Of a stretch of DNA of 64,000 bases, positions 4,239 to 58,527 are shown one piece after another. The stretch comes from Cordylochernes scorpioides (taxonomy: Eukaryota > Arthropoda > Arachnida > Pseudoscorpiones > Chernetidae): NCBI GenBank assembly GCA_030710605.1, contig CP092879.1, forward strand, positions 26,183,844 through 26,247,843, written 5' to 3'. Below the pieces are notes generated by a model. That model did not search any database, was not told the DNA's origin, and was given only the letters and a program-made list of their open reading frames with translations. Position 1 is the stretch's first letter; every line of letters begins with the position of its first letter. Both the position numbers and the translations under genes were made by a program.

Positions 4239-6197
4239 CTATCTATTACTAAAAAACATTCTACAAAATCTATTAAAATTAATATACATATATCTATTAT
4301 TAACTATTTGATTTAGACAATTTATATTTATTTGATTTTTGACTCTCAAGTCCTCTACAAGTCGACAGTCCGTTAGAATATGTACAGGATTTTCTTCTTT
4401 TGCACCACATGAGCATTTAGGCGAATCCGTCTTTCTGACTTTGTACAAATATGATCTAAAGTTACCGTGTCCAGTAAAAAATTGGACATTGTAAAAATTT
4501 GGCTTGACATATTTGGGTATTTGGGAATCAGTGAAGAAGGACTTGAAAATGGTATTAGTCTTCTCATAGTATTTCTGCAATTTTTCCCTTATATAATTAG
4601 AAATTATATTACTACTTGAAGAGTCAAATCGGTTGTAATTTATTTCGGTTTTCAACATGTTAGATTCAATATAATCAGTAAGTTTGGGGACTTGTGCAAG
4701 TATATGTGTACAATCCGATGATGTTGTACTGTAGGCCTGTATACAATGTTTTAATATACTATATTGAAGAGAATTTAGTTTGTCCTTAGGCTTTTTGTTT
4801 ATGAATGGATACCATATTGGGTAACCATAAGTAATTGTACTTCGATATAATGTCTTATACAATATCAGTCTTCGTCTAAAGTCTAGACCCCATGCTTTCT
4901 TTGTCAGGCCAAATAGGTATCCACTAGCTCTAGTTACTTTTATGATCATTTCATTAACGTGAGGCGTAAAGTCCAGTTTGCTTCTGACTCGGTGATTTTT
5001 AATAGTCACTCCTAGGATCTTAAGTTCTTCAGCCGGTTTAATTAACTTGCTACCTGAGACTATTATATCGCTATTGCATTTAAATAAATATAATATTTTT
5101 GTTTTTTCATCTGACAATTTTAATTTACGACTTTCACACCACTTATTGATTTTTCTTAATACATTATCTATTGTCTTTCTTAGTTGTTCAGGAGTTTTAT
5201 TCCAACATATTAGCGTAATATCATCTGCATATCCTATTGTTTCACAATCATCATCCAGATTATTATTCAGTATCTCATTAATAAGAATATTCCATAATGT
5301 GGGAGACAGTGGTCCTCCCTGTGGACATCCTTTACTTAGTTTCTTATTAATTTCAGTTGAGGAATATCTAAATCTTATTCTTCTATTATCAAAGTATGAT
5401 TGTAGAAGTTTTATCATTGAAGCCTGCACACCATCTTCATCTAGTCTTTTCATCAAGGCCGGCCACCATGCATTATCAAACGCTGCACTAATATCCACTG
5501 CAATTATTGCTGCATATTCTCTTGTTTTATGTTCTAACGCAATTTTTATTATTTCAGTTAGTGCAGTAATAGTAGATTTCGATCTTCTAAAGCCATGTTG
5601 TCGATCACTTAGTAAATTAAAATCTTCATAATATTTTATTATTCTGTTAATAATTATTTTTTCAAATATTTTAGAAATGTTGGAATTAAGACATAAAGGT
5701 CTATAATTTTTAAAGTTATTAAAATCAGTTTTTCCAGGTTTCGGAATAATTATTGCCTCTGCTCTTTTCCATTCAGCAGGATAGTATTGTAGGTCTAAAC
5801 ATTTTTGAAATAGTTTCACCAATATAGGAGCTATATATTGTTTAGTGTGCCTTATCATGTTGTTAGAGATGTTGTCTATTCCGGGAGATTTCTTTGGATT
5901 TAATTTGTCAATTAAGTCGTTAACTTCAGTAATCATAACCATCGGTTTTTCTTTATTGAGTAGTTTTAAATTATAATTTCTTATACTTTTATGGATGTTT
6001 GTATCTTCTTCACATTTATCATCTGGAAATAAGTTATTCAATAATTCCTCACCCTTCTGCAAACATTCCATATCAGTATTACCCTCCAAAATTTGCATAT
6101 TTCTCTTCCGCTTAAATCCACTTTTGATGTTTTTGTACACCTTATATAAGTTTCCATAAGGGTTGTTCGACTTGTTTTCCTCCAGAAAATTCTCCAT
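4239..6197 (-). pseudogene. Reverse transcriptase of an R1-like non-LTR element
   Basis: An open frame of 652 codons encodes the RT of ORF2. In order I see the N-terminal palm motif KNYRPL (residues about 163-168), HGFRRSKST (201-209), the motif with the first catalytic Asp AVDISAAFDNAWW (233-245; the DNAWW form is typical of R1-clade elements), GCPQGGPLSPTLWN (290-303), the catalytic YADD (323-326), a thumb region, and a C-terminal Cys-rich motif CSCGAKEENPVHILTDC (about 595-611). This enzyme would copy the element RNA at a nicked target. The frame itself is uninterrupted, but the endonuclease upstream is in a different frame, so the polyprotein is broken. Confidence 0.88.
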
Positions 6198-6382
6198 GAT
6201 GCTTTCCTAGCTTTTTCTATTTCCCGTAAATACTTATTTCGTATGCTTTTATAGTATTGTTTAATATGATTAGGGCAATTTTTGTTTCTATAGTAACAGT
6301 TTCTAAGATAATGACAGTGATCCTTTAGAAGCTGTAAATTCGTATTCCACCACTTATTACTAATATTATTTTTGGTTGTCAT
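6038..6382 (-). pseudogene. Linker between endonuclease and RT of the R1-like element
   Basis: This frame overlaps the start of the RT frame and carries the usual basic linker (a KWWN motif, then NKYLREIEKARKASWRIFW near residues 48-66). Its last part is an out-of-frame reading. A one-base shift near 6190 would join it to the RT. Confidence 0.6.
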
Positions 6383-7347: not shown

Positions 7348-9388
7348 TGTAGTATTTTAAATAATTACAACTCTCTTTAGCATTTTGATCCACCTAGAGA
7401 TCGATATGGCATTGGACCACATAAATCCATATGCACCAATTCAAGGGGTTTGGTTGTACAGTTGGTGGTAACGGGATGGTAAGGTTGTCGAGTCAATTTC
7501 CCCATTATACAAGCTCCACATTCTGGCGATTTCTCAAATTTAACATTAAACCCCAATACCACATTCCGTTGAATTATCTCTTTCATGTGCGCTTCGTTCA
7601 AATATTCAGCCTTCTATGCCACAAGCTGATATTGTCATTTGAGAAATCATCTTTTGTGGTCATGACATTCTCCGTCTCTTCCGAATATTCATCTCTGGAC
7701 CTTGTTTCCATTACATACATCCTATTCTGGATTTGAGCCTCTGCAATTAAATCATCCTGTTCATTGTAAATCTTTTCTCCATCTCTATTGAAAATTACAG
7801 TATTTCCTTTGTTAGTTAATTCGTATATTGATAAAAGATTAGACCTTAAGTTAGGTACATGCAGAACTCCTTTAATTTGAACATTATCAATTCCGTTTTC
7901 GGTACAAGTAGAAACCTTGATATCACCTTTAGCTGTAGCATGTGTAACTTTACCTTCTTCTGCCAAATTTATCTCACTTTCATAAGGCATTACATTTTCC
8001 ATCCAGTCCAAGTGTGGAGATAAGTGCGTAGTACACCCTAAGTCAAGACACCAGGTTTGGATATGACTATAATTATTTGAGGAGTTTTCAAAAACTCGAT
8101 CTGTGCTGGTATTGAAAGTTTGTTCCGCAGGCTTGCTTGAGACGGTATTCACATTATTTCTGATATTTTGTTTGTTATAGTTCGTATTTGAATTTGCATT
8201 TCTTCTCCCATGTTGTTCTTGAGTTCGCTTATTTTTGAACCAGCAATCTTTAGCTAAATGTGCTTTTTTATGGCAAACAAAACACCTCTTTTGTCGATTC
8301 TGTTGATAGTGATTTCTTCTGTCTTTACTTCTGTAAGCCTGTTCATTTTCATCAGAATGACTCCCATACATCTTAGAATTCATTCGATTCTCTTCCTCTC
8401 AAAGTGACTGCCGAATTTCATCAAGAGTTAATTCTCTTCTTGTTCTGAGTACAACAGCGATCTTTTCCAATCTTGGATGGATACCTCGCACAATATGAAA
8501 CGTTAGTTCTCTTTGGGATATTTAGTGTCCGAGTGAAGAACTTTGAGAGGCAATATTTTTGGCTCTAGCCATATATTCGTTTATGGATTCATTATTTTTC
8601 ATCTTGATATTCTTAAGTTCAAGTCCAATATCAATGATCTTATCTTCTAGGTTGCCCGTGTAGATTTTCTTTAATTCATCCCATACTTTCTTTGCTTTAG
8701 TTTCATCTAGAAACATTCCTGCTTGTTCATCTGATAGAGTTGTAACTATAATTCCAAAGGCTTCGTCATTCTTTTCACTCCATATTTGCCAAGCGACTTC
8801 ATCTTTTATATCAGGTTCGGGATCCGAAATTACGCATTAAAATAATTTCTTTCCACGTAAAAGTGCTCCGACTTTTAAAGCCCAAATCGGATAATTTGTT
8901 CCTGCTAAAGGTTCAATTTTTGTCGTTGGCGAAAAATTGCAATCCATTTTAGCCTTGTTTTTCAACTTTTTAAAATTAAACAATATAGTTTAAAGGTAGT
9001 TTATAATTCAAAAATGTTTTTTTTTTCAATCCTTATATTTAAAACTTTCTTTTATCAATATAATTCAAATTCTATTGAAACATATTTCAAAATTTACACA
9101 CCTTGATGCAGAAGAGATCTTTGTTTACCGATTAGAATAAACGTATCAAACTTCTGATAAAATATTTTCGCTTTTTCTCAAGTTTTAAATTGAACCGTGC
9201 TCTGCTACCATAAATTGCAGTATTTTAAATAATTACAACTCTCTTTAAAGCAACAAAAGAATTATTTGATGCATTTAGCAAGACAAGAAAAAAAAAGACA
9301 AACTCGGAATGCCAAAACCAAAACCTTTAGGTTAGTTCCTATTCCAAATCTAGCTTTCACACAGAGTATTCAAAAATAAAATACGACA
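7348..9388 (-). mobile_element. Copia LTR retrotransposon with most of pol deleted
   Basis: The 5-bp target duplication ATATC flanks it (7343-7347 and 9389-9393). On the minus strand the 5' LTR is 9388-9216 (173 bp, TG...CA). It is followed after five bases by the primer-binding site TGGTAGCAGAGCACGG (9210-9195), a half initiator-tRNA-Met-type site typical of Copia elements. Then come gag, a zinc knuckle, protease and the start of integrase. A remnant of about 31 bases of the 3' LTR (7348-7378) directly abuts the integrase, so the rest of integrase, RT, RNase H and most of the 3' LTR were lost in one deletion. Confidence 0.85.
7377..8716 (-). pseudogene. Copia gag-protease-integrase fragment
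   Basis: Three consecutive minus-strand frames remain. 8716-8522 is a gag capsid piece (MFLDETKAKKVWDELKKIY, matching the AKEVWDxL block of Copia Gag). 8383-7598 holds a CCHC knuckle (CFVCHKKAHLAKDCW), a protease motif WCLDLGCTTHLSP (the usual D-S-G-A/C is here D-L-G-C, so the active site is altered) and the GAG-pre-integrase block LWHRRLNI. 7601-7377 is the start of integrase with CGACIMGK and LVHMDLCGPM. A stop lies between gag and the knuckle and a shift lies near 7600. It cannot make a working polyprotein. Confidence 0.82.
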
Positions 9389-19198: not shown

Positions 19199-20592
19199 TT
19201 AGTCCTCAGCAAAAGGTAATGGCACTATTTTAGAGACAGTTCTAGTAAGGCGTTCTTGGTGCTTGGTCTTCACCTCGACGACTCGAACTTTTCCATCCGC
19301 TCCCGGAAAGACTTTGGTGATGCGACCAAGGCTCCAATATATTGCTGGTGGTGATATGGTATCCTTGAGCAAGATGAGGTCACCTTCCTTAATGTTGGGT
19401 GAGGATTTATGCCATTTTAGGCGTTGTTGCAAATTATTGAGGTATTCTCGATTCGAACGTTTCCAAAATACATTTTTAATTTTTTGATTTAGGCTCCAGC
19501 GATCGAGGTAGTTTATCGGAACACCATCATCATCATTAGATTCTGGAGGGGCAGTTAAGGGTCTCTCGATTAAGAAGTGTCTTGGTGTAAGAGGATTAAA
19601 ATCGTCTGAATTTGAACTTGAGGACAAATAGGTCGCGAATTTAAACAAGCTTCTATTTGAGTTGTCAGAGTACTCAGCTCTTCAAATGTGAGTATCTGAG
19701 ACATCAAGCATCTGAGAAGATGAAATTTGAAGGATTTTATTCTAGCCTCCCAGATACCTCCGAAATTTGGGGCGGAAGGAGGTATAAAATGCCAGTTGAT
19801 TCGTTCATTAGATATGAATTTTTGAATTGTTGAAGCTTTCAATATATCAAACTGCCCTCGGAGAATGTTGTTAGCTCCCCAAAGGTTGGTCCCGTTATCA
19901 CTAAATATATCAGAAGGTTTTCCTCGACGAGAAATAAACCGCTTGAGAGCTGCGAGGAAAGCTGCTGAAGATAGGTCTGATACAATTTCTATATGAATTG
20001 CTTTTGTGCAGAAACATACAAATAAAGCAACATATGATTTTAATTTTACTTTGGATCTTTTGATGTTTGGTTTAATTAAAAACGGCCCTGCAAAGTCGAT
20101 TCCAGTTTTAGTGAACGGATTTGATTTCAAAATTCGGTGCATAGACAGATCTCCCATTATTTGCTTGGTAACTTGGCATTTAGCCCTGAAACACACCATG
20201 CATTGGTGGATTAGTTTCTTGACCAAACTTCTGCCTCCAGGAATCCAATATCGTAATCGTAGTGCTGACATGGTCAGTTGAAGACCAGAATGTAAATGAT
20301 CCAGATGACACTGTCGCACTATTAATTCCTTGATTAAATGATCTTTTGGTAATATTATTGGATGCTTTTCATCAAATTGCAGATTTGAATGACGTAATCT
20401 TCCTCCAACCCGTAATAGTCCAGATTCATGAATGAGAGAATTCAAAGATAAAATCCTTGAGTTAGTTGGTAAAGATTTATTTTGTTTGCAACAGGTAATT
20501 TCTGATTGAAATTCAGAACTTTGAATGAAACGAATGATATTGTGAATTGAACTTGTTAATTCGCTTGAAGATATGTCCTTTCTTTCTTTCAT
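19199..20592 (-). pseudogene. BEL/Pao integrase
   Basis: The main frame (20592-19570) carries the H2C2 zinc-finger end (HQCMVCFRAKC), then the catalytic core: TGIDFAGPF (first Asp), SDNGTNLWGANN (second Asp) and NFGGIWEARIKSFK (Glu). The C-terminal part lies in another frame (19648-19199), with NPLTPRHFLIERPL, FWKRSNREYLNNLQQRLKW and LGRITKVFPGADGKVRVVEV, the typical Pao tail. A single shift near 19600-19640 separates the two. The enzyme would insert the element cDNA. Without the shift it would be full length. Confidence 0.9.
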
Positions 20593-20616
20593 TGAAAGAA
20601 CATTGAATACAAATCT

Positions 20617-22389
20617 TTAAATCCATGCTGTAATTCTAACATGTTCGTTGATATTTGAGTATTTGAAAATAAAGTCTGGGAAAAGAAGATTAGTGAAATG
20701 AAAAACAGAGAAAGGTTTTCGTCTTTCACCTGAAATATCTTTCGGAAAATCATATTGAGTTTGAATTGTATCTTCAAAGTTCACATCCGAGAGCCAAGTT
20801 GGTCCTCGCCACCAAAGAGAGTGATCCACCAGCTCTGAAGGAGTTATACCTCTGGAAGGGCAGTCTGCAGGATTATCTTTCGAAATGACATAATGCCAGG
20901 AAGAATGTAAAGTCAATCTTTGAACTTCAGAAATCCTATTTCCGACAAATGGTTTTCAATGTCTAGATTCAGATATAATCCAGCTGAGAACAATTTTGGA
21001 AACAGTCCATAAAAATACTCTATCAATTTGTAATCACAAAGAATTGCAAATAGTATCATATAAAGTTGAGAGAAGAAAAGCAGCGCACAGCTCCAGCCGT
21101 GGTGTGGAAATCATTTTCAGAGGAACTACCCTCGTCTTGGAAGCAATCAGAGAAACTTTCACTTGGCCCGATTTGAAAAGAGATCTTATATAAAATACTG
21201 CCGCATATGCAACTTCTAAAGAGTCACAAAAACCATGAAGTACAACAGAAAGTAAAGCTCCCCTGCACGAGAATTATCTAGGAATTTGAATTTTATTTAA
21301 TACGGATAATTCCTTTTCGATTTTCTTCCATTGAGAGCACAAAGTATCAGGCAAGGGATCATCCCAATTCAACTTCTGTTTCCAAAGTGATTGAAGCAAA
21401 ATTTTAAGACGAATAAAAACTGGTGACAGCCAGCCTATAGGATCAAAGATTCTGGAGATGTGGGACAACAAATTTCTTTTAGAATTCGTTTGTTCTGGAA
21501 TGTCATTAACAAGAATCTGAAAAATGTCCAAGGACGGATTCCAACAAATACTAAGTATTTTGACACATAAATCACTCTCAAAATCCTAATGATTATGCCT
21601 ATTGATCTCCATTTCCTAAGAGAAACTCCGGCTGAAGAAAGAAGATTATTGACTTCACGAATATGACATGTAGCTTCTGCAATTGTGTCTGCACCAGAAA
21701 GCAAGTCATCAACATAAAAATCGGTTTGTACTATTTTGAGGCCACTGGGAAAGTTGACACCTTGTCCCTTGCAAGTTGATGTAGGGTACGCATGGCGAGA
21801 TATGGCGCACAAGACAATCCATATGTCACAGTCAGTAGTCTACAATCCAATAAAGGTTCTGATGGGTTTTTCTCCATAAAATTCTCTGGAAATCACAATC
21901 CCTAGGATCGATTCTTACTTGGCGTTACATTTTCTCTATATCTCCTGAAAAAGCTATTGGGCGTGTTCGAAATCTTATCAGAATGTTGAAGATATCCTGT
22001 TGTAGTTTTGGTCCTACATGAAGAAAGTCATTTAGAGATTTGCCATTGCTAGTTTTGCAAGATGCGTCAAAAACAACTCTCAATTTAGTGGTAGTGCTTT
22101 GCTCCTTAAAAACACAATGATGAGGTATATAATAACATTGTCCTGAAGGTGTATCCAGCTCATCACTGGGAATAAACTCCATATGATTGATTAAAAGATA
22201 TTCGTCCATGAAATCACAATATTGTTTTAGGATACTTGGAGATTTTTGTAATTTTCTTTCAAGTGATAGAAATCGTTTCAGAGCATTGATCCTATATTCG
22301 CCAAGAGTTGGCAATGTTCTAAATGACAGCCCAACAGAGTACCTTCTATCTTCCAGAATTTTGATGTTATTAATATATATTCTCCACAC
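20617..22389 (-). pseudogene. BEL/Pao reverse transcriptase and RNase H region
   Basis: Minus-strand fragments in order: 22389-21925 with LRVVFDASCKTSNGKSLND and SGDIEKM (the palm with the first catalytic Asp); 21812-21435 with FYVDDLLSGA (catalytic YVDD); 21531-21274 with FDPIGWLSPVFIRLKILLQ (Pao connection domain); and 20916-20617 with NPADCPSRGITP and LWWRGPTWLS (the block between RNase H and integrase). The segment 21273-20917 holds RNase H sequence only in broken frames. At least four frame breaks mean it is inactive. Confidence 0.85.
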
Positions 22390-22847
22390 GAAATTTCTTC
22401 TCTGGTTAAAGATTTGGCAGAGGGTACTGACTCCAGCTCCCAGAATATTTTAAGAAAATCATATTGTTCCTCCGACGCGAACATAGTTATATCTTGATTG
22501 GAATTTTCACCTGACAGTAATATTTTACCTGTAAGTAACCATCCCAATTTGGATCCGCACGCAGTGGGTCCAGATAAATTTTGGAATCTAACCTTCCCGT
22601 TAAATAAGCATGGAGCAAGCTCTGCTCCTATCACTAAATCAATCTGGCTAGATTAGTCAAAATTGGGGTCAGCCAACAGAAGATTTTTCAAATAAGGCCA
22701 ATTATCCTTTTCTATAAAGAAATTGGGCAATTCTGATGTGATCTTATCGATGACTATAGGATTGGCGTTGAATATTAGGTTTGAGAAATGTGGGGTAAAT
22801 TGGAGAGCGACCTCACCCATTGATTGTTCTACAAGTTTGTTTCCCAA
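22278..22847 (-). pseudogene. BEL/Pao protease to RT linker
   Basis: Frames 22847-22653 and 22634-22278 form one stretch: a protease C-terminal half (LLLADPNFD joined to LIGAELAPCLFNGKVRF) followed by TACGSKLGWLLTG, the conserved TxxGWLL-type motif at the start of Pao RT. A stop (TAG, near 22652) separates them. The catalytic protease motif itself should lie near 22950-22850 and is not intact in any frame that I can read. Confidence 0.7.
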
Positions 22848-22919
22848 ACCAAAAACTGTAGATTTACATTCAGCAAGAGGAAGATTTAATTTCGTTCGAC
22901 AAACTATTTGTTATAAGAC

Positions 22920-24174
22920 ACCTTGGGCTCTACATGTTTGAAGAACCCCGTTTTACGATTTGACCTTTATTAAAGCCGTAGAGAGTAATATCCGATCATG
23001 ACTTTTGTTGTCTGCAAAACATAAGACACTGGCATTGGTAAAAGGAGATTAGGACTTAACATTTCTGGTTTGAACTGATGCAAAAGAGGATGATGTCTCT
23101 TATTACATGATTTACAATTTGCGTAAAGACGCATGAGGATACTCTATGGTTAGACAGTTGTAACATAGACGATTATCTTTTACAAATGTCCATCTTTCAG
23201 GTAACATCATACCATTAAACTTAGGACATTTCAACAAAAAATATTCACCTTTACATAAGACGCATTACGTGACTCTGCTATCTATACTAGAGTCAGAGGC
23301 AAATGTTGCTGAATGAGAATGAGTGGATTTATTCATTTTGTAGAATTGGTTTGAATTTTCTTTATTCTGAAAACTCCCGAGACTTCCAGCAATTTTTTCC
23401 AGGAAAGAAATAATCTTTTCATACGATGGATATTCTTCCTCAAGCAAACTCATCTCCCATTCCTTTCTTTTTGAACGATCAAGTTTTGATTGAATTATAT
23501 GAATTAAAATCATATCTGATAAATTATTACGTTCCAATCCGAGGATAGAGAGATTCTGAATGCTTTCGTTACAAGTGTCTAGGAGATCAAGTAAATCTCT
23601 AGTCGATTCTTATTTTACATTTTTTAGATCATACCAATTTTGAATTTGTTTGAAAGCCAATTCACTTTTTTTTTGTCGAATCTATTGACCAAGGTTTGCC
23701 AGGCAATAGGATAATTTTCATCAGAAATATTGAACGCCCTAATAAGTCTAGCGGCATTTTCTTTTAGTGCAGAATTAAAATATTGAAGTTTTTGATGATT
23801 TCCCAGTTTTGTATTTTGTTCAATAGATCTAATAAAATTTCCTTAAAACTCAGCCAATCTGAAATATCACCACTAAAGGTGGGCAATTGAAATTTGGGAA
23901 GTTCTAAATGCGTTTCATCAGAAAATATATTTTTATTTATATTTCCCAGTGATCTATTCATTTTTATCAAAAAAGAATTGATTTTAGACTTTGCCTCAAA
24001 AGATAACTTAAATTTTTCTTCAGAATTAATGCCTTTATATTTTACTAATTTCACATATTGATTATCAAAGCTAGCTTTTAAATTTAACAAGTCTTTTGTA
24101 TTTTGCATAAGTGCGTATTCTACATCTGCTTTCAATTCTACATCTGCTTTCAATTCTACATCTGCTTTTATCAA
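22920..24174 (-). pseudogene. BEL/Pao gag, broken
   Basis: 24174-23764 reads through a coiled N-terminal part with a short tandem repeat (KADVELKADVEL) and then LELPKFQLPTFSGDISDWLSF, the diagnostic Pao Gag block. 23537-23265 continues with LIHIIQSKLDRSKRKEWE. Further on, Cys/His pairs near 23260-23080 are likely remnants of the zinc knuckles. Stops and shifts separate the pieces. Confidence 0.8.
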
Positions 24175-36895: not shown

Positions 36896-37519
36896 TGTTG
36901 GCGCAGTCGTGGTGCTGAGTGGATAGGTGTTCACATCAGGGGGAAATAAGCAAGAGTACACAATTGGTGGTTGAAATAAAGCAACTAAATCGGAGGAGAG
37001 AAGGGCTTGAGAGGTTAGGCGGATTAACTATTGGCTATTCAATTACATTACGGAATATTGGACTTATCTGATGGGGGTTGGCGGTGAGAATGACTCCACA
37101 GGGCTAGGTGCTAACTCGGTGGGATCCAGCTCTCAACTCTAGGTCCGAACTCGGTGGGATCCAGCTAACTACTGACAATTCTATGTTCTCGATTTAAAAC
37201 GAAAACTCTTCTTCCTTCTCATTGGTTGACCTGCATGACGTGGAAGTTCGCTATAGGCTCGAAGCTAAAATAGCTGCTCTCTGATTGGTTCGCTTTAACT
37301 CTTTGTATTTGGACGTGTTCTGACCTGTCCAGGAAGGGACAGTTTGTTGAACTCGAACTTTTACGAGTTCCGGGATAATAAAAAACTTTACTTATGATTG
37401 TGCTCTCTCTAGGCCTTCTTTCTCTCCAGATTTGTTAAGCCTTGTTCTTTATTGAAATTCAAAGCATACATTATACACATTGGGTCGGGTTTGCATCTAG
37501 CTATGTACAAATTATGACA
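36896..37519 (-). repeat. Putative 3' LTR of the Gypsy element
   Basis: Read on the minus strand it begins TGTCATAATTTG directly after the polypurine tract, contains an AATAAAGAAC signal near 37450 and ends CGCCAACA. Without the second LTR the left boundary rests only on the TG...CA ends, so it is tentative. Confidence 0.45.
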
Positions 37520-39304: not shown

Positions 39305-40137
39305 TCATCTAAGTTTGTCTAGGTTTTCTGCGAGAATGTTTCCTAGAATTTTTAGGAGTTTTAAAAGTGCTTGGACTATATGAGAGATTGAATTTAAGAC
39401 GGAGTTTCCTATATGAAAAACTGAGTTTAAGACGGAGTTTCCTATATGAAAAACTGAGTTTAAGATGGAGTTTCCTATATGAAAAACTGAGTTTAAGACG
39501 GAGTTTCCTATATGAAAAACTGCCTCTTGCAGCTCGAAAATTCTATGAGAAGGTAGGGTATAGATTAGTATGTAATTAATAGATACGAATGGAACGACTC
39601 TATAGGATAGGACTAGTAGACAAAGGATAAAAATCAGATGAAAGATCGGGTATCGACGCATTTTCTCCCATATTGGTGTTAGGAATGGTAGTTCTGGAAT
39701 ATCTGTTTGAACCTTATTTATTGTTGGCCGTTCAATGTCGCACTGCTCATCGTTGGAGAATGGTGTGGATCGTTTTGTTGAAAAAATGGTAGGATCCAAA
39801 TGCTTGTCAGGTTCGCAGTCCTTATTATCGGGAAGAATGGTGTAAGTCGTTTTGTTGAAAAAATGGTAGGATCTAAATGCTTGAAAGGTTCGCTGTTTGT
39901 TGGTTTGAATCTTAACGGTTCTGTTGGAAATATTTCGGGGTTGAAGTGTTTAAACGGGAACGTGTAATCGGGCTTGTGCCTTATATGATGTATTCTAACG
40001 GCGGACGGTGATATATAACGGACTTTTTCAGTATATAGCTTAAGCTTGTTGACGTGGATCGTATCAGTGTCTCTTTGGAGAGGTTGATTTGGTCGATGAC
40101 TGACAATTCTCTGTCGTAGGTGGTGTAATTTCGGCAT
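39305..40137 (-). pseudogene. Gypsy integrase C-terminal end with membrane-spanning extension
   Basis: Frame 40137-39718 begins with TIHVNKLKLYTEKVRYI, the block typical of the Gypsy integrase C-terminal end, then a proline/phenylalanine-rich stretch containing a tandem duplication (SEPFKHLDPTIFSTKR, repeated at the DNA level near 39760-39900). Frame 39799-39305 continues with a strong hydrophobic segment (IFHLIFILCLLVLSYRVVPF, about residues 52-71). It ends in four to five copies of an 11-residue unit, VFHIGNSVLNS. The hydrophobic segment could be a transmembrane anchor of an envelope-like or pol-fused product. The two frames are joined by a shift near 39780. Confidence 0.5.
39388..39530 (-). 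repeat. 33-bp tandem repeat
   Basis: Four copies of the unit starting GAGTTTAAGACGGAGTTTCC and ending ATATGAAAAACT. They encode the 11-residue repeat described for 39305-40137. Confidence 0.9.
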
Positions 40138-40199
40138 TGTTTGTATTGTGTGTGTGATGTGTTTTGTGTACGAATTTTTTTTTTTTTGTGGGTTGTGTC

Positions 40200-41096
40200 G
40201 GTGTTTTTACGTGGAGGTTGGTTGGATTCATCGATACTTCTAGCGAATCGGCAGGTGGGACAGGTTTTTACCTGTTTTGTAATGTCGTGTGTCATGTTCT
40301 GCCAATAATATTGTGAAGAGATGAGTCTCGTCATCTTTGAGATGTTTGGATGGTGGTGTTGTGTGTGTACGGACTTAAGAAGTCTGGCTGTAAGTGAGCT
40401 TGGGACTATAGTTTTAAGTACACCTTTTCGGGAGAAGGTATGCAGTCCATTGTGATTCATAGTCACGCAAGATTTTCCCGGTGGAGAAGACTGTTGGCTC
40501 TTTATGAGTGGCGCATCTAGAAAGCCACAAAATGGGATACGAGTTACAACGCCCGTTTCATATTGTTGTACTCCATTTATGCTACGGACCTCATATTCGT
40601 ATCTTGACAGCCTTAACCTCCATCGAAACAATCTGCCTGACGGGGCTTTGATCCCTTTCAACCACTGCAATGTGGGATGGTCAGAAAGTATTGTAAACTT
40701 TCTGCCCATTAGACAGGCGCGGAAGTTATCCACACTTTCCACAATGGCTAGGCATTGTAGTTCTAAGTTTGAATAACTGTGCTCGTGAGCACGCAGAGAG
40801 CGGCTGAAATGCTGAACTGTGTATGTCTTCCCATCAGGGTAGACCTGTTTAAGAATGCCTGCAATGCCGAGTGTTGAGGTGTTACAGTACACCTGGCATG
40901 GCAGACCTTCCTGGTAAAGGTGTAATGTGGGGTGTGTGGTAAGGCTTTCTTTCAGGCTAGTGAACGCTTTCTGGCATTCGTCATCCCAGACCCACATGAC
41001 ATCCTTTTTTAGAAGGTTGACAAGTGGCGTCCGCAAGCGGGCGTGGTCTGGAATGAACTCTTTATAAGCGTTCACAGCGTTTAGGAAAGATCGCAA
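40200..41096 (-). pseudogene. Gypsy RT thumb, RNase H and integrase zinc finger
   Basis: The frame starts in the RT thumb (RSFLNAVNAYKEFIPDHARL, then WVWDDECQKAFTSLKESL). It then runs through RNase H (TVQHFSRSLRAHEHSYSNLE, LQCLAIVESVDNFRACLMGR, FTILSDHPTLQWL) and the HHCC integrase finger (HTQHHHPNISKM ... TCPTCRFARS, near residues 245-285). After that the reading diverges into unrelated sequence, and the catalytic core of integrase is absent (deletion between about 40230 and 40137). In RNase H, the expected catalytic Asp before STLGIAGIL reads as Asn (CNTSTLG), so that site also looks lost. Confidence 0.82.
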
Positions 41097-41099
41097 TGT

Positions 41100-41690
41100 T
41101 TTTCGACTGTGTGGTTGTTTGGTGGCGTGAATTTTTCTATGTTTCGTGTAGACGGGATGGTTGTGTTATTAATGTTTGTGCATATTTTTGCTGGTTGTTG
41201 TCGTCTTTTGGTGTGAGTGTCGCGCTTGTTGTGCTGGTTGTGTGTGTTACCGTTGTGTGATGACGTATGGACGCGTGCGTTGTTAGCGTGAAAACCGTCC
41301 TGTTGGATGGATGTTGCCTGTGTCTTGTTGTGAATGTCGTGTTGGTTGTGAGGTACATTTGCGTGATTGTTGCGTGACGACGTATGGTCACGTATGAGCT
41401 TTGTGTGGTAGTTGTGCGAGCTGTGCGGCTGTATGGACATGTTTTGGGCATTGTGGTTGTGAGTTGAAGCCGTTGTGGCTTTGTGGGTTGAGGGCATATA
41501 GTGATGGCAATTGGCTTTACTAAAAAAGTTGTGGGGTGCGTGGTTAGATTTGTGGCAGGTAGATAATTGTTTTTTGTTCAATGGATGCATGCAAGGGTTA
41601 CCATGGGTGAAAGATTTGGGTGTAGTGCAAGTCCTTTGGGACATATTTTGGCATAGCCCGTGCGTGAATTCATTTGGTACATGGTTAAAG
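41100..41690 (-). other. His/Thr/Asn-rich low-complexity stretch replacing the RT palm
   Basis: Between protease and RT thumb, where the RT palm should be, the minus frame codes for a His-, Thr- and Asn-rich chain (for example THNHNAQNMSIQPHSSHN). The plus strand is TG/GT-rich (GTTGTG and CGTG motifs). No RT motif is present. It looks like a slippage-expanded filler in a deleted element. Confidence 0.6.
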
Positions 41691-41699
41691 TGATAGGGA

Positions 41700-42085
41700 G
41701 TGTTAGACAATGGGACGCCAAGTTGGAAAATAGTGCCGTTATTATAATCTAATTTTAATTTAAAATGATAAAGAGTATTTAAGGTAAGAATTCCAAATGG
41801 CAGCGATGCATTTACCACGTGGAAGTTCTCCTTTCGGGATATTTGGCCTATTGTCAGAGGAAGAGTCAATTTACCTATTATTTTTGTAGAACCATTTAGG
41901 ATTGGTAGATCAGGGGAATATTTTTTAAGACTTAAATGACATGAAATGGCACTACGTTCGAACCTGCGTCTGGGTCAATTAGAAAGGTGCATGGTAGGTC
42001 CTGGTCCAGAAACAGTTCCAATGTCAATTTCTTGACGTTATAGGGTGGAGAGCCTACCTCAGTCTCGAAAAGTCTCCACTGGGGC
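41700..42085 (-). pseudogene. Gypsy aspartic protease
   Basis: Minus-strand reading gives CTFLIDPDAGSNVVPFH near 41990-41940, where the aspartic protease motif D-T/S-G is here altered (D-P-D-A-G-S). After a stop, LPFGILTLNTLYHFKLKLDY near 41800-41745 is the C-terminal protease block. The stop (TAA near 41938) and altered motif show decay. It would cleave the polyprotein. Confidence 0.6.
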
Positions 42086-53343: not shown

Positions 53344-53388
53344 AACGTATCTCTATTAATAGAGGAAATAACACGCTATATATATATA

Positions 53389-53574
53389 TGTCGCATACCT
53401 CGCGACATTTGCATGATATTGATTTGTTTTGTATATTTTTACTTGTATATTTGCATGTCCGCATGAAGCGCGATATCTATATATAGGTCAAAGGATTAAT
53501 AAAGTTAGAGTTTCTACTGATTAGAATCGTCTCATTGTTTCTTCAAACTCGTTCTTTTTGATTGGAACTGTACA
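53389..53574 (+). repeat. 5' LTR with TATA box and AATAAA
   Basis: CTATATATAGG near 53478-53488 fits a TATA box and AATAAA lies at 53498-53503. Transcription would thus start and end in the LTR, as in other short LTRs. The only differences from the 3' LTR that I see are near 53463, 53477 and 53550. Confidence 0.85.
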
Positions 53575-53576
53575 AC

Positions 53577-54640
53577 ATGGCGCAGCCGACGACAGGACGA
53601 AGAAGTGAAGGATCCTCAGGATCGACCATGGAAAGTCTCCTCAGGGAAATGGTGGAGCAACAAAGCTTGATGATGAGCATTCTTTGTGGAAATAAGAAAG
53701 AAGAATATCTCAGCGAAGATGATTACTATGAACAAAAAGAATATCTCAAATATTCAGTTGTTGAAGATGTAGATGAAGAAGAAGAGAAAGAAGAGGCAAA
53801 TATTGAGTCTCTAAAAAGTCTTGAAAAATCTGAAATCAGGACGATGGTGAAGCAGCAACGTTTGATAATGGACTTACTTTTCGAAGTTGAAGAAAGTAAA
53901 AAATCTCAAGTTGAGGAAAATTCAGTTGTAGAAACGGAAGAAAGTGAAAAAGCCGAAATTGAGAAAAATCCGTTGAAGCAGATGAAAGTGAAAAGGCTGA
54001 AGTTGAAAAAAATTCTGGTGAAGTTGAAGAAAGCGAAAAAGCTCAAGTTGATAAAAGGTCAGTTTTAGGAACTGAAAGTGCAGAGCCTATTACGAAAGAG
54101 GTAGATGTGATTGCTGGTATTGATGCAGATAATGCAGGACTTTGTGATCTTGATGATGTCACTTACACTCAAGCTGGGGAAATTGACAAAGATTCAGAGA
54201 ATACAGAAGAAATTTCTGATTACATTAATGATGTTCGTAACACTCAAGCTGGGGAAATTGACAAAGATTCAGAGAATACAGAAGAAATTTCTGATTACAT
54301 TATTGATGTTCCTACCACTCAAGCTGGGGAAATTGATACTGATACAGAGAATACAGAAGAATTTTCTGATTGCATTATTGATGTTCCTAACACTCAAGCT
54401 GGGGAAATTGACAAAGATTCAGAGAATACAGAAAAACTTTCTGATTGCATTATTGATGTCCCTGACACCCAAGCTGGAGAAAAAGAACCTACTAAGGAGT
54501 CTGGTACTGGCAAAAAAAGAACCAAAGCCTGGTACTGGCGAAAAGAAACCTACTAAGGAGTCTGGTACTGGCGAAAAAGAACCTACTAAGGAGTCTGGTA
54601 CTTGCAAAAATGAACCAAAGCCTGGTACCGGCGAAGAAGC
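53577..54640 (+). pseudogene. Acidic repeat-rich N-terminal region of the captured protein
   Basis: The ATG at 53577 overlaps the putative primer-binding site and starts MAQPTTGRRSEGSSGSTMES. Two copies of a helical motif follow (REMVEQQSLMMSIL and KQQRLIMDLLFEVEE), then Glu/Lys-rich imperfect repeats. After a shift near 53970 come five copies of a unit of about 24-25 residues (TQAGEIDKDSENTEEISDYI). A second shift at a run of seven A (about 54513-54519) is followed by PTKESGTGEKEP repeats. A coiled or disordered linker is likely. I do not recognise a family. The repeats argue that the same frame was translated before the shifts. Confidence 0.6.
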
Positions 54641-55110
54641 TTTGAGAGAGCTACCTTGTTACGATACTCTATTGGAAACTCTCAAAAAAGGAATCTATTC
54701 GTTTCAAACAAGCGGTGAAAAAAGAAATATGAAATTAGGAATATGTGATGCTATTATCTGCCATGGAATAGGTGATTTCGATAAATGCAATCACGCAAGA
54801 TGTCGTTTGTTAATTTTAAAGGTATTAAAGAAATTAACACGCTGCCAAAAAGTTTGGATTTATGCTAAAGAATTCAGCCAGATGCAAAAAAAAAACATGC
54901 TTGATAAATACGACATTGAAATGATGGAAATTTCAGAGATAGAAAGTGGATATTTGCATAGAGGTAAAACAATCTTCTTTCTATCAGGATCTCCTGTATA
55001 TATATACGAGGAAGTTGTGAAAGCGAATTGGACAAATAAAGGACTACGTGACATTGCCATGATTGGAGAGAATGTCTTATCCTTTACTTTAGAGGCCACG
55101 AGGTTCTATC
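54641..55110 (+). pseudogene. SRR1-like domain
   Basis: Within the long frame, LGICDAIICHGIGDFDKCNH (about 54735-54794) matches the start of SRR1 domains (x-CxGIGxF). It is followed by RCRLLILKVLKKL (the helix with the conserved Leu run), VWIYAKEFSQ (where SRR1 proteins have a YDPxF-type strand) and EIESGYLHRGKTIFFLSGSP, then EEVVKANWTNKGLRDIAMIG (A/G-NW and IxxIG motifs). SRR1-like proteins act in circadian or metabolic regulation in plants, yeast and animals, with poorly known biochemistry. All core blocks are present in order. What it would do in this element is unknown. Confidence 0.72.
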
Positions 55111-56170
55111 GTTACCTGCAGCTACTTCGAACTCAGAAGTGGTATGTCAAAATAGGCAGACCAACTAGACCGAAGATGGAATTACTCGTAGATTGCCTGG
55201 AATTGTATTACATCCAACCCTATGACGAGCTCTTCTGGGGTAGAAAGTTAGTCCCAGTTGGAAAAGGCACATGGCCAAAATGTGTTATGAGGGATGTTAC
55301 TGATAATGGCGGATCTTCTGTTCATAGAATTGAACAGATTTCTGAATATAGGAATCCAAATATTGATCATAGAAAAAATTGGTCTTATATTTCTCCTAGA
55401 ACGAATAAAAAGGAAATAAATATTTTTGATGCTTTGGGAACCTTACAAGGTAGTGCTCAAGCCAATCTTCGTTATCCTAAAGATTTTTGGATTGTTCGTG
55501 ATTTGGGATCTAGAAATTTTTCAAATATTATTGAAGATAGTGAAAAGAATGATAATTTAGATTTGAATGATATGAATTTATCTCATTTTGTCGTTTTTCA
55601 TCCTGAATATGGAGGGAAATCTCTAAAGAAAGTATTGGAAAATGGAAAACTTTCGCCAGAACAATTAATGAGCATTCTTTGTCAGATTTGTATTTTGATG
55701 AGTCATGCTGGGCAAAACATCGGGTTGGTTCACAATGATATAAGTCCCAGAAATATTCTGATACGACTGACTGCTCAAAAGGTTTTGAATTACGACATTG
55801 GAGGAGAGAATTATGAAATCCCAACCAACAACTGCATTGCCAAGTTGAAAGATTTTGAGATATCTGGACTTGTAAAGAATGATAATCCTAATCCGAATGT
55901 TTTTTACGAGAATGTTTCTCAGCTAATTTGGACCCATAATGAAATGCGAGAATTTAACTCTGCTTGTGAAATACATACTGAATTCAGATAGTCGATCTGT
56001 TGGGGTGGAAGAGAATATGCTGGACTATAAGGGTGTTTCAGAGTGGAATTACAGGGTATTAGCTCGTAAAAATATCTGCAAGAAACTCTATTCTGATGTT
56101 GAACAAGATGCTTACCATTCTCCCGGTAAACTCCTTCGAAAAATTTACAAAACGGCCTCAGATATCTATG
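55111..56170 (+). pseudogene. Haspin-like protein kinase domain
   Basis: After a linker, the kinase C-lobe blocks are clear: LSHFVVFHPEYGGKSLKKVL (the hinge and the GG-x-L helix of haspin), LSPEQLMSILCQICILM, the catalytic loop LVHNDISPRNILIR (HND...N at 55731-55754), the haspin-type insertion LNYDIGGENYEIPT and LKDFEISGL, where the metal-binding Asp is kept (55851) and the usual DYT/DFG reads DFE. After a frame change near 55960 it continues with VKYILNSDSRSVG and SPGKLLRKIYKTASDIYGF. The N-lobe glycine loop and lysine are not evident. Haspin phosphorylates histone H3 Thr3 at mitosis; whether this copy ever had activity is unknown. A viral-type kinase is a less likely alternative. Confidence 0.65.
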
Positions 56171-56790
56171 GGTTTTTTTGTATTCCAAAGTGTGTGTTGC
56201 TAGTTTGGATCCAGTGCTTACTACGCCACTTAAGAAATTGGCTTTGTATTGTGATTTTGAATATATTGAGAATAAGTCCGAACTTATGAAATTGGATTCA
56301 AAAATCAAATTAATTTATGTGAAGAAGTCTGTCGATGGCCATTCTTATAGTTTGCCGAAAATCGAGAATAAATATGTAATTTCCTTTTTGCAAAGTGATT
56401 GTGACCAATTATTGCAGCTGAATCACGAGATGGAGATGGCTCTAAAGATAGTCCTATACCTACTAACAATAGAGTTTCTACGCTATTCACAAGATGAGCC
56501 TTCGAAATGGAGGTTTCTTATTAGCCAACAAAATTTCCTTTACGAGAACTGCTTCAGAATATCATTGGAAGATATGGAAGATAATGTACAAGAAATTCGA
56601 ATGGAAACTACAATAGAACCCACTAAGGAGTCTAATACTGGGGAACAAGGGCCAGAAATCACTGATGTAACCTCGACCCCCATCAACTGGAAGCAAGATA
56701 TAGCCATTTCCAAGTGGCCGGAGGACAATTTCATCATAGACCACCCGGAGTCCCATCACAGGAGTGATGAGAGGTCATGGAGGGGGAGTC
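56171..56790 (+). pseudogene. C-terminal tail with a second possible SRR1-like piece
   Basis: A shift at a run of seven T (56171-56177) leads into a frame reading VASLDPVLTTPLKKLALYC and FEYIENKSE. This resembles the middle of SRR1 domains (DPVxTxLEK...GxxVIEENxEG) more than any kinase. It is followed by IENKYVISFLQSDCDQLLQL and a long helical stretch. Near 56610 the PTKESNTGEQGP motif repeats the linker motif of 54490-54600, tying both ends to one original protein. The frame runs on into the 3' LTR. Confidence 0.45.
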
Positions 56791-56976
56791 TGTCGCATAC
56801 CTCGCGACATTTGCATGATATTGATTTGTTTTGTATATTTTTACTTGTATATTTGCATGTCCGCGTGAAGCGCGATATATATATATAGGTCAAAGGATTA
56901 ATAAAGTTAGAGTTTCTACTGATTAGAATCGTCTCATTGTTTCTTCAAACTAGTTCTTTTTGATTGGAACTGTACA
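56791..56976 (+). repeat. 3' LTR of the kinase-bearing element
   Basis: Same 186 bases as 53389-53574, directly after the polypurine tract, ending TGTACA before ATATATATATAGC. Confidence 0.85.
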
Positions 56977-57519
56977 ATATATATATATAGCAAATAAAAA
57001 CAATAAGACGCGAATGTTTATTCACACATAAATCAAATTAGATTAAATTGGCGAAACCGCTAAGAGGGTTCACCACTGATAAGCCAAGCCCTCCCAATAT
57101 TTTTTGCATCGCATTAAGGACATTAGAAATTTGATATATGTGTTAAAGAAACTTTCCTGTCTTAATGCTTTTATTTGTTATATTTGATATCTTCTGAACA
57201 TTGCTACCAAAGGTGCTTCATTTTTAGTTTATAATTATCGATAAAGTAATAACAAAATAATAATAAATAACAAATTCTTATGAAAATAGATATAACAGCT
57301 CCTCTTTTTCTTGGTAGTTCTCAAATAAAGTTTTACCGCTGCCAACTACTGTTTAAAATAGCATTTATATATGAAAAATGAATATCATTATTTATATTTG
57401 TAACTATTATAGACGGGTATGATTCTTTCAAAAATTAACCAATTTCAACTGCCCTTACTGCAATGGATAAATATATGAGAGGGCCTGGCTCATCAGTGGT
57501 CAACCCTCCCAGCGGTTCC
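56977..57519. repeat. Two CCCTCCC hairpin repeats in opposite orientation and tail of body copy 3
   Basis: Plus copy at about 57030-57175 (GGCGAAACCGCTAAGAGGG, then AGCCCTCCC) and minus copy at about 57410-57520 (GGGCCTGGCTCATCAGTGG, then AACCCTCCC). They enclose the body tail (57190-57410). No gene. Confidence 0.65.
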
Positions 57520-58096
57520 CTTTATTGATGGGGGTACAGAAACGCCAGAAAAGGTGAAATACACATGGATTAATAACGGTGGTTTAAAGGTTCTAGGAGA
57601 CGGTGGAATACACATCTTACGTCTCAGATGGCTGAGACGGGGAATTACTTATATTTTATTGACAGCAGAAAAAGATACCAGAGAAGCGGGAGAGTACACA
57701 TGTTTTATTGAAAGAAGTACAGATATGCCAGAGACGCGGTTAAGTACAAGAGTTTTATTGACCGAAGTGCAGATATGCCAAAGAAGAGGGTAAGTACATA
57801 TGTTTTTCGACAGAAGAATAAAGATGCCAGAGACGAAGGGGAGTTCACATATTTTATTGACAAAAGTACAGAGATGCCCGAGACTGGGAAGTACACATGT
57901 TTTATTGACAGAAGTATAGAGAGACCAGAGACGGGAGAGTACAAATGTTTATTTACAGAGGTACAGAGATTCCCGAGCCGGGGGAGTTCACATATTTCAT
58001 CAAAAGAAGTAAAGATTGGCCAGAGACGCTGGGGAGTACAAATATTTTATTTACAGAAGTACAGAGATGCCCGAGATGAGGGAGTATACATGTTTT
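57520..58096 (+). repeat. 48-bp minisatellite array, block H
   Basis: About a dozen units. The first two resemble block B (GGTACAGAAACGCCAGAA), the rest resemble block I. Confidence 0.9.
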
Positions 58097-58527
58097 AACA
58101 CAAAGCAATAGCGCGCCATCTAGACATATAAAATGAAAGGATTTAAAAGCACGAATGTTTCTTTTATACATAATTCAAACTTATACTGCCCTTACTGCGA
58201 TGAAAAAATATATTGGGAGGGCTTGGCTCATCAGTGGTGAACCCTCCCAGCGGTTTCGCCAATTTAATCCACCAGACCGCTTCTCAGAGCTCTAATACTT
58301 TATTGGACGATTTTGCTTATATACAGTATTAGAGCTCTGAGAAGCGGTCTGGTGGATTGAATTGGCGAAACCGCTGGGAGAGGTCACCACTGATGAGCCA
58401 AGCCCTCTTAATATATTTTTTCATCGCAGTAAGGGCAGTAGAAGTTTGAATTATGTATAAAAGAAACATTCGTGCTTTTAAATCCTTTCATTTTATATGT
58501 ATAGATGGCGCCTTATTGCTTTGTGTT
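58097..58527. repeat. Foldback element with 200-bp inverted arms
   Basis: AACACAAAGCAATAGCGCGCC at the left (20-base part AACACAAAGCAATAGCGCGC) is mirrored at the right by GGCGCCTTATTGCTTTGTGTT. The arms, each of about 200 bases, meet around a spacer of about 30 bases near 58300-58330. Both arms contain the CCCTCCC hairpin. It interrupts the minisatellite, which resumes near 58570 after 40 bases of unique sequence. Confidence 0.85.

Follow-up and report, generated by a model that had tools for sequence, protein, structure and literature searches.

Animal long terminal repeat (LTR) elements that carry host genes are mostly known as acutely transforming retroviruses, in which a host gene stands in place of viral genes and a helper supplies proteins. 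The best-known plant case is Bs1 of maize, which keeps a gag remnant. The TRIM and LARD elements have LTRs, a primer-binding site (PBS) and a polypurine tract (PPT) without gag-pol, enclose a non-coding interior and are moved in trans, the TRIM elements being small. Here we describe a family of LTR elements from the pseudoscorpion Cordylochernes scorpioides, one copy of which occupies positions 53389-56976 of the window, a stretch of 64,000 nucleotides (C17:26183844-26247843) within a genome of 24 contigs and 2.62 Gb. In this family the place of gag-pol is taken by a fused open reading frame (ORF) made of host-type gene segments.

Bs1 is the closest described kind, and the pseudoscorpion family is a Bs1-kind element. 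A passage in PMC13317346 describes Bs1 as an LTR element whose ORF is chimeric from three transduced host genes, with no full-length ORF among the segments. The pseudoscorpion ORF is likewise chimeric from several host-type gene segments, with the donor shown for NAP only. Unlike Bs1, the family lives in an animal, is represented by 445 exact LTR junctions and falls into several subfamilies with differing module sets; its modules are of the NAP1, haspin-like and SRR1 types, its ATG overlaps the PBS, and no gag-pol was recognised in it by Pfam. Captured host gene sequence in LTR elements of rice and sorghum is also mentioned in a passage of the same source (PMC13317346), which, as far as that passage goes, deals in counts of many captured sequences, whereas the pseudoscorpion has one related family with recombined modules. 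The pseudoscorpion elements share with TRIM and LARD elements the presence of LTRs, PBS and PPT without gag-pol, and differ from TRIM elements in that the interior is mostly one long ORF of 562-1119 amino acids (aa). They differ from the transforming retroviruses in being dispersed in the genome, in having no retroviral gene that we found, and in the degenerate state of their kinase. No such family was named in searches of an open-licence PubMed Central library, judged from abstract openings.

The window element and its flanks have the following parts.

53384-53388, unstranded: left-flank target-site duplication ATATA, 5 bp, weak, in a TA repeat
53389-53574, plus strand: 5' LTR, 186 bp, TGTCGCA...TGTACA, containing a TATA-like sequence (53478-53484) and AATAAA (53498)
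53577-54068, plus strand: start of the cargo frame (frame piece 1), a start module MAQP...MESLLREMVEQQSLMM and then an acidic stretch; the ATG overlaps the PBS
53578-53596, plus strand: PBS TGGCGCAGCCGACGACAGG, beginning 3 nt past the LTR
54079-54528, plus strand: acidic-linker tandem repeats with a 75-bp unit (QAGEIDKDSENTEE...)
54474-54640, plus strand: PTKES-TGE / PKPGTGE linker, with PTKES-TGE repeats at 54474-54610 and a further copy at 56605-56647
54744-55100, plus strand: SRR1 domain (PF07985 match at E 1.4e-9 with 38.5 bits, the cut-off being 24)
55224-55967, plus strand: haspin-like domain, kinase-1, with VHRI (R at the beta-3 Lys place), HNDISPRN and KDFE
56030-56610, limits approximate, plus strand: module X, in two overlapping frame pieces in the window copy
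56648-56714, plus strand: C-terminal remnant of a NAP1 segment (GPEITDVTSTPINWKQDI), with 91% identity to L068, the host donor gene described below
56779-56788, plus strand: PPT GGAGGGGGAG, of which ATGGAGGGGGAGTC is common to the subfamilies
56791-56976, plus strand: 3' LTR, with 3 mismatches to the 5' LTR
56977-56981, unstranded: right-flank target-site duplication ATATA, the second half of the duplication

The two LTRs have TG...CA ends and match at 184 of 187 aligned positions. An earlier sequence-only reading of the window had reported 186-bp LTRs with such ends, a TATA box, AATAAA, a PPT and about three LTR differences, and every one of these was seen, as were the linker repeats that it had placed at both ends of the coding region. 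The target duplication of this copy is weak because the insertion site lies within a TA repeat. The PBS core TGGCGCAGCCG at 53578 is overlapped by the ATG of the cargo frame at 53577; the reverse complement of the PBS ends in ...CGGCTGCGCCA, which we take to resemble the 3' end of tRNA-Ser. By eye, the start module of the window element has its like in other copies. The coding region of the window copy is broken up over several reading frames (53562-54068, 53963-54556, 54111-55991, 55927-56289 and 56130-56888), a stop at 55989-55991 closing the frame that holds kinase-1. The sequence-only reading had made an SRR1-kinase protein the sole cargo; this part of it has to be given up, the copy holding in addition the last 67 bp (about 22 codons) of the NAP1 segment and a further module, X, of about 180-240 aa.

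That reading had also proposed a recently mobile, non-autonomous LTR family, and a genome-wide search for other LTR-flanked copies found them. The exact 21-base junction of PPT and LTR occurs 445 times in the genome and 0 times in a reversed control. The LTR search, in which 40 matches were scored of 1588 candidates, supplied a first set made up of the window element and 16 fetched copies chosen for two LTR hits close together, and a 5-bp target duplication (ATAGG, TTGAA, ATTAT and TGGGG, for example) is present in 17 of 17 elements of this set. When the SRR1-kinase piece was searched for at the protein level, 94 of 1665 candidates were scored and 127 matches came back; 30 of the matching loci were fetched, 7 of them elements already seen and 23 new. 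An LTR pair lay inside the fetched flanks of 19 of the 23, and no LTR pair was seen in the flanks examined of L044, L048, L049 and L052. Target duplications were called by script for 16 of the 19 new pairs and by eye for two (L034 and L054), with one pair (L053) having none; GATGG and AAGAA are further examples among the protein-found loci. Altogether 35 of the 36 LTR-paired copies have a 5-bp duplication, those two by eye included, and in 13 of the 36 it reads ATATA or TATAT, which is weak evidence on its own.

The LTR pairs within copies are 97-100% identical, and across the family the PBS adjoins the 5' LTR and the PPT the 3' LTR. With many LTR-bounded copies, target duplications and a fused ORF in place of gag-pol, the description as a recently mobile, non-autonomous family holds. 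L015 and L016, with flank and duplication in common, represent one insertion copied along with its surroundings; L037, L038 and L039, which share a TAAAT duplication, may be segmental copies. Single LTRs are present as well (L025-L028), with no partner element in their flanks, where ORFs were read by eye. The window element was inserted into a TA repeat and has many tandem repeats close by, a setting in which unrelated tandem repeats or an assembly error could be mistaken for an element. The chance of such an artefact is negligible: the elements are scattered over many contigs with differing 5-bp duplications and matching PBS and PPT, and this, together with the junction count and its empty control, refutes it. 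The 186-bp repeats likewise did not prove to be an unrelated tandem repeat found everywhere in the genome.

No gag or pol match was returned by Pfam for five window pieces, for the ORFs of 14 loci or for 7 ORFs of six further loci, and when three gag/pol proteins were compared with loci L009-L058 by tblastn, the matches lay outside the elements only (L025 and L032). The absence of a retroviral gene, as claimed from the sequence alone, was thus upheld by Pfam in the window pieces and by tblastn inside the family elements. The start module looks like a gag N-terminus by eye, without support from Pfam. A Pao gag in gene model P0003 was dropped as a part of the element, the stretch lying beyond the 3' LTR in L032. 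A 5-bp target duplication is compatible with gypsy and Pao elements alike.

The copies fall into subfamilies whose LTRs are about 72-99% like the window LTR over the aligned part. Subfamily A (the window element and L009-L014) carries SRR1, kinase-1, module X and the NAP remnant, and its interiors are 98.2-99.2% identical with gaps left out. Subfamily B (L015/L016) has SRR1 and a partial NAP. Subfamily C (L017-L024) has an SRR1 fragment, a second haspin-like domain (kinase-2), fragments of kinase-1, and NAP; seven of its eight copies are at least 99.9% identical mutually (L018 and L020 100.0% to one decimal), the outlier L023 having a 1.5-kb interior and 82% identity in the alignment. Kinase-1 and NAP occur without SRR1 in subfamily H (L051, L052 and L055), and kinase-1 and module X without SRR1 in subfamily G (L050). 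The modules are combined mosaically across subfamilies, NAP1 among them, and the fixed SRR1-haspin fusion of the sequence-only reading was not borne out. In the first 125 bp of the LTR the window element and L018 are 99% alike, and at the 3' end 98%, yet L018 carries kinase-2, and of kinase-1 no more than fragments. The LTR of L055 is 73% like that of the window element, but the kinase N-lobe is 96% and the C-lobe 98% alike.

Many copies have a single open frame running from the PBS-overlapping ATG into or almost to the 3' LTR. Naturally open ORFs were found in L012 (1119 aa), in L018, L020 and L022 (962 aa each), and also in L034, L037 and L038; open frames measured from stop to stop have 830 aa in L032, 916 in L042, 925 in L043, 850 in L051 and 595 in L055. 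The frame of L050 has 832 aa and ends about 140 bp before the 3' LTR. In Pfam searches SRR1 or haspin-like domains stand together with NAP domains in single ORFs, the best E values in element ORFs being 2.3e-13 for SRR1, 3.1e-28 for NAP and 3.4e-5 for haspin. A 54-bp tandem repeat (PTNNCIAKLKDFEISGLV) within the kinase is present in five copies in L012, three in L013 and one each in the window element, L011 and L014.

The mosaic could have been caused by deletion alone, from one cellular fusion gene embedded between LTRs once. The similar start and 3' end across copies agree with such an origin, and some copies resemble deletion derivatives, for instance in the kinase of L037. We consider it improbable. 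Kinase-1 and kinase-2, at 31% identity, occupy the same place in the alignment, an arrangement hard to reach by deletion alone. The NAP segment, moreover, matches its donor at 97.9%, whereas none of the host genes read comes close to the kinase or SRR1. The last difference suggests that the captures took place at different times.

The source of the NAP segment is a gene on contig C18. A genome search with PF00956 gave 91 matches, with 139 of 139 candidates scored. One of them, at C18:36928574-36930139 (locus L068), is an uninterrupted frame of 626 aa with a whole NAP domain (profile positions 2-266), and its 4.6-kb locus has no LTR match to the 11 family elements compared. Over a segment of 338 bp its identity is 97.9% with L055, 97.6% with L051 and 96.5% with L018, and the identity ends within a few bases at either side. 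In the elements the NAP domain scores 98-99 bits against a cut-off of 28.6 in L018, L051 and L055 and covers profile positions 62-186 of 266 only; in L046 and L057 the scores are under the cut-off. Five further NAP-like loci (L063-L067) are 31-42% identical to the element in aa. L068 contains long acidic EQGTDSK repeats in the same single frame, and the acidic linker of L055 matches these repeats over 80 bp at 90%. These comparisons demonstrate the capture of a host gene segment for NAP1, with RNA as the probable intermediate. The reverse direction, in which the C18 gene would be domesticated element cargo, could account for the very high identity and for the single uninterrupted frame. It is most improbable, in that the NAP domain of L068 extends beyond the shared 338 bp on both sides, its N- and C-terminal parts have no match in the 11 elements, and it has neither LTR nor the start module of the elements.

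Host capture, as first proposed for SRR1 and haspin, is thus directly supported for NAP1, whereas the host loci read for the other two domains (six SRR1 and four haspin) are only 24-31% identical to the cargo over their main matches. This identity, and the absence of a subfamily A, B or C LTR, speak against these ten loci being themselves element copies. In a genome search with PF12330, 112 of 588 candidates were scored and gave 113 matching places, all over the cut-off; most are unbroken frames about 320-450 aa long, and many stand in tandem clusters (C5, C17, C3, C14, C10 and C21). The search with PF07985 gave 150 matching places (150 of 236 candidates scored); with scores higher than about 57 bits these are for the most part separate, clustered, uninterrupted frames, and the lower ones are largely elements. 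A set of SRR1-like frames lies on C5, C3, C15, C4, C13, C18 and C6, represented by loci L069-L074. Some SRR1-like and haspin-like matches lie no more than about 2 kb apart, at C5:43976886/43978539, C5:44072516/44074169, C5:43182999/43185249 and C18:46606158/46608420; they look as if they were a pair travelling or working together. It is striking that all three cargo domains have relatives as uninterrupted frames in this genome.

The SRR1 domain recognised by the sequence-only reading was confirmed by PF07985, which gives 26.6-50.8 bits (cut-off 24) in the copies that matched; the Pfam scan of L018, of subfamily C, gave no SRR1 match. The haspin-like kinase stood in part: the best structure, profile and fold matches are haspin, whereas the Pfam kinase scores stay under the curated cut-offs (Pkinase E 8e-4 in the window copy; PF12330 23.5 bits at best in element ORFs, cut-off 25). 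The closest solved structure to the window kinase is haspin (E 7.6e-5), and a profile built from eight family kinase sequences matches haspin with E 4.5e-10. Foldseek returned haspin for all of the top 12 matches to a model of the kinase (E 5e-6 to 3.5e-5, TM-score at most 0.43); this kinase-only model is weak (mean pLDDT, the per-residue confidence, 51.5), its input alignment included host haspins, and it serves as support only. An AlphaFold model of the 715-aa SRR1-kinase-X region was set aside at a mean pLDDT of 26.6.

Like haspin (GSG2), the cargo has a C-lobe with the haspin-type insertion, and haspin is its best PDB match by sequence and fold. Unlike haspin, it lacks the beta-3 Lys and HRD. 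The beta-3 Lys place is occupied by R in 12 of 12 copies of kinase-1 compared; the catalytic loop reads HND in eight, HNE in three (L032, L034 and L053) and is absent from L037, and the DFG/DYT position reads DFE, with its Asp retained. The host haspin-like loci L059, L060 and L062 retain both the beta-3 K and HRD. Kinase-2 of L018 has HDD and DFG and is without the N-terminal strands ahead of the C-helix region. Given the catalytic residues lost from kinase-1, an active mitotic kinase is unlikely and a role in binding is likelier. Module X gave no Pfam match above the cut-off and one 14-bit hit below it, to a family other than that of ATG5; it is also present at L014:2614-3324. ATG5 was the sole PDB name returned for it (four of four sequences), with E 0.25, and is not claimed.

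Taken together, the reading of these loci as elements with captured and mosaically exchanged cargo is highly probable. A non-autonomous LTR superfamily would keep only its cis signals (LTRs, PBS and PPT) and one long ORF beginning at the ATG that overlaps the PBS, and an autonomous element elsewhere would reverse-transcribe and integrate its transcripts. The ORF would have been put together out of host sequence, the simplest route being template switches onto host transcripts in the course of reverse transcription; for the NAP1-like segment the capture as such is shown, its source locus on C18 being still intact. Exchange between co-packaged RNAs would be the simplest origin of the variety of modules (start, acidic linker, SRR1, haspin-like 1 or 2, X and NAP). 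Template switching between co-packaged RNAs has been described for LTR elements, according to a passage in PMC13317346.

Several results weigh against this reading and against a function for the cargo. No autonomous helper was found among LTR pairs starting 1.6-3.6 kb apart (40 of 1588 candidates scored), nor in a second LTR search with spacings of 1.6-2.1 kb (40 scored, more than 1500 candidates unscored). The direct donors of SRR1 and of the kinase were not found among the ten host loci read. Many copies are frameshifted, that of the window included, and the domains are truncated or degenerate, the kinase in the R at the place of the catalytic Lys, the HND/HNE loop and the absence of the loop from L037. 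Singleton changes in subfamily A number 97 non-synonymous and 23 synonymous (N 2486, S 631), a ratio of about 1.07 that looks neutral; those in subfamily C (39 and 9) look likewise neutral, L023 being badly aligned. Subfamily C also has 91 multi-change codons, which we think come mostly from L023. Between A and B the ratio of non-synonymous to synonymous rates (dN/dS) over the SRR1 part is 1.00 and 1.60. The difference between the donor and element NAP segments arose in part on the host branch. The evidence on selection as a whole is mixed.

Two A copies compared have a dN/dS of 0.33. Over bins of rising dS the pooled value for kinase-1 is 0.96, 0.56, 0.53 and 0.38 (73, 23, 111 and 8 pairs), for SRR1 0.82 (127 pairs) and 0.37 (4 pairs), and for NAP 0.39 (24 pairs), all from pairs that are not independent and without a likelihood test. 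Over 101 shared codons the differences between L068 and each of eight copies number 3-5 synonymous and 1-4 non-synonymous, host-branch changes included; one-sided binomial tests of the donor-element NAP comparison gave p = 0.014 for L018, 0.023 for L051 and 0.033 for L055 (three tested). The pattern would fit constraint in the moving lineage and decay after insertion, and does not prove function.

Passive passengers of the Bs1 kind would explain the same element and the same captures with an ORF that has no function, the host sequence acting as filler and the long frames lasting through the youth of the copies or because translation shields the RNA. We put this close to an even chance. It agrees with the neutral patterns within A, within C and between A and B, with the lost kinase residues and truncated modules, and with the short-interior L023, whose two LTRs are identical and which is flanked by a target duplication (its deletion may postdate insertion). 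It is harder to reconcile with frames of 562-1119 aa and a similar start in subfamilies with about 27% LTR difference, with the drop of kinase-1 dN/dS to 0.38-0.56 in deeper comparisons, and with donor-element NAP changes that are mostly synonymous or few. If the cargo has a function, the likeliest would be that of a non-catalytic chromatin- or histone-binding protein that aids the element's own RNA or DNA, a tentative proposal that we put at rather less than even odds. More specifically, the haspin-like domain (as a binder of the H3 tail), the NAP1 fragment (as a histone binder) and SRR1, set on acidic linkers, might tether the particle or DNA of the element to chromatin through germline divisions as a working part of its life cycle; this extension is rather doubtful.

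Searches of protein databases with the element ORF matched C. scorpioides gene models only (six of six, from the best 7995 candidates scored), as did that with the NAP segment (one of one, 57 candidates); the SRR1 segment gave nothing at E <= 1e-3 among 81 candidates. Gene models P0003-P0008 and P0012, among them one called GSG2 and another called histone acetyltransferase, hold pieces of the element ORF, several of them fused to unrelated neighbours. Some gene models of the C. scorpioides assembly thus include pieces of transposon ORFs, and they should be used with that warning in mind.

Other retroelement frames lie on the minus strand of the window at 4239-6206, 7598-8398, 19570-23800 and 39981-41974. 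They are of types resembling the reverse transcriptase of long interspersed elements (LINEs), copia, Pao and gypsy; the Pao gag (22599-23800) and the gypsy-like frames are backed by tblastn, and the remainder were assigned by eye. At window position 36899 stands GGCGCAGTCGTGGTGCTGAGTGG, by eye a tRNA-Ser-like start, possibly of a short interspersed element. At 57479-58098 and similar places, degenerate tandem repeats of about 48-50 bp read as repetitive frames and have no Pfam match.

If the proposed mechanism and role are true, the family would represent an LTR element of a new class, which encodes a host-derived accessory protein instead of gag-pol and parasitises a helper. It would also be an element that upgrades itself by repeated capture from expanded, single-frame host gene families. 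Hundreds of copies, many of which are young, are present here in one animal genome, in several cargo subfamilies and along with one intact donor gene; capture, exchange and selection on the cargo may therefore be dated and tested within a single species.

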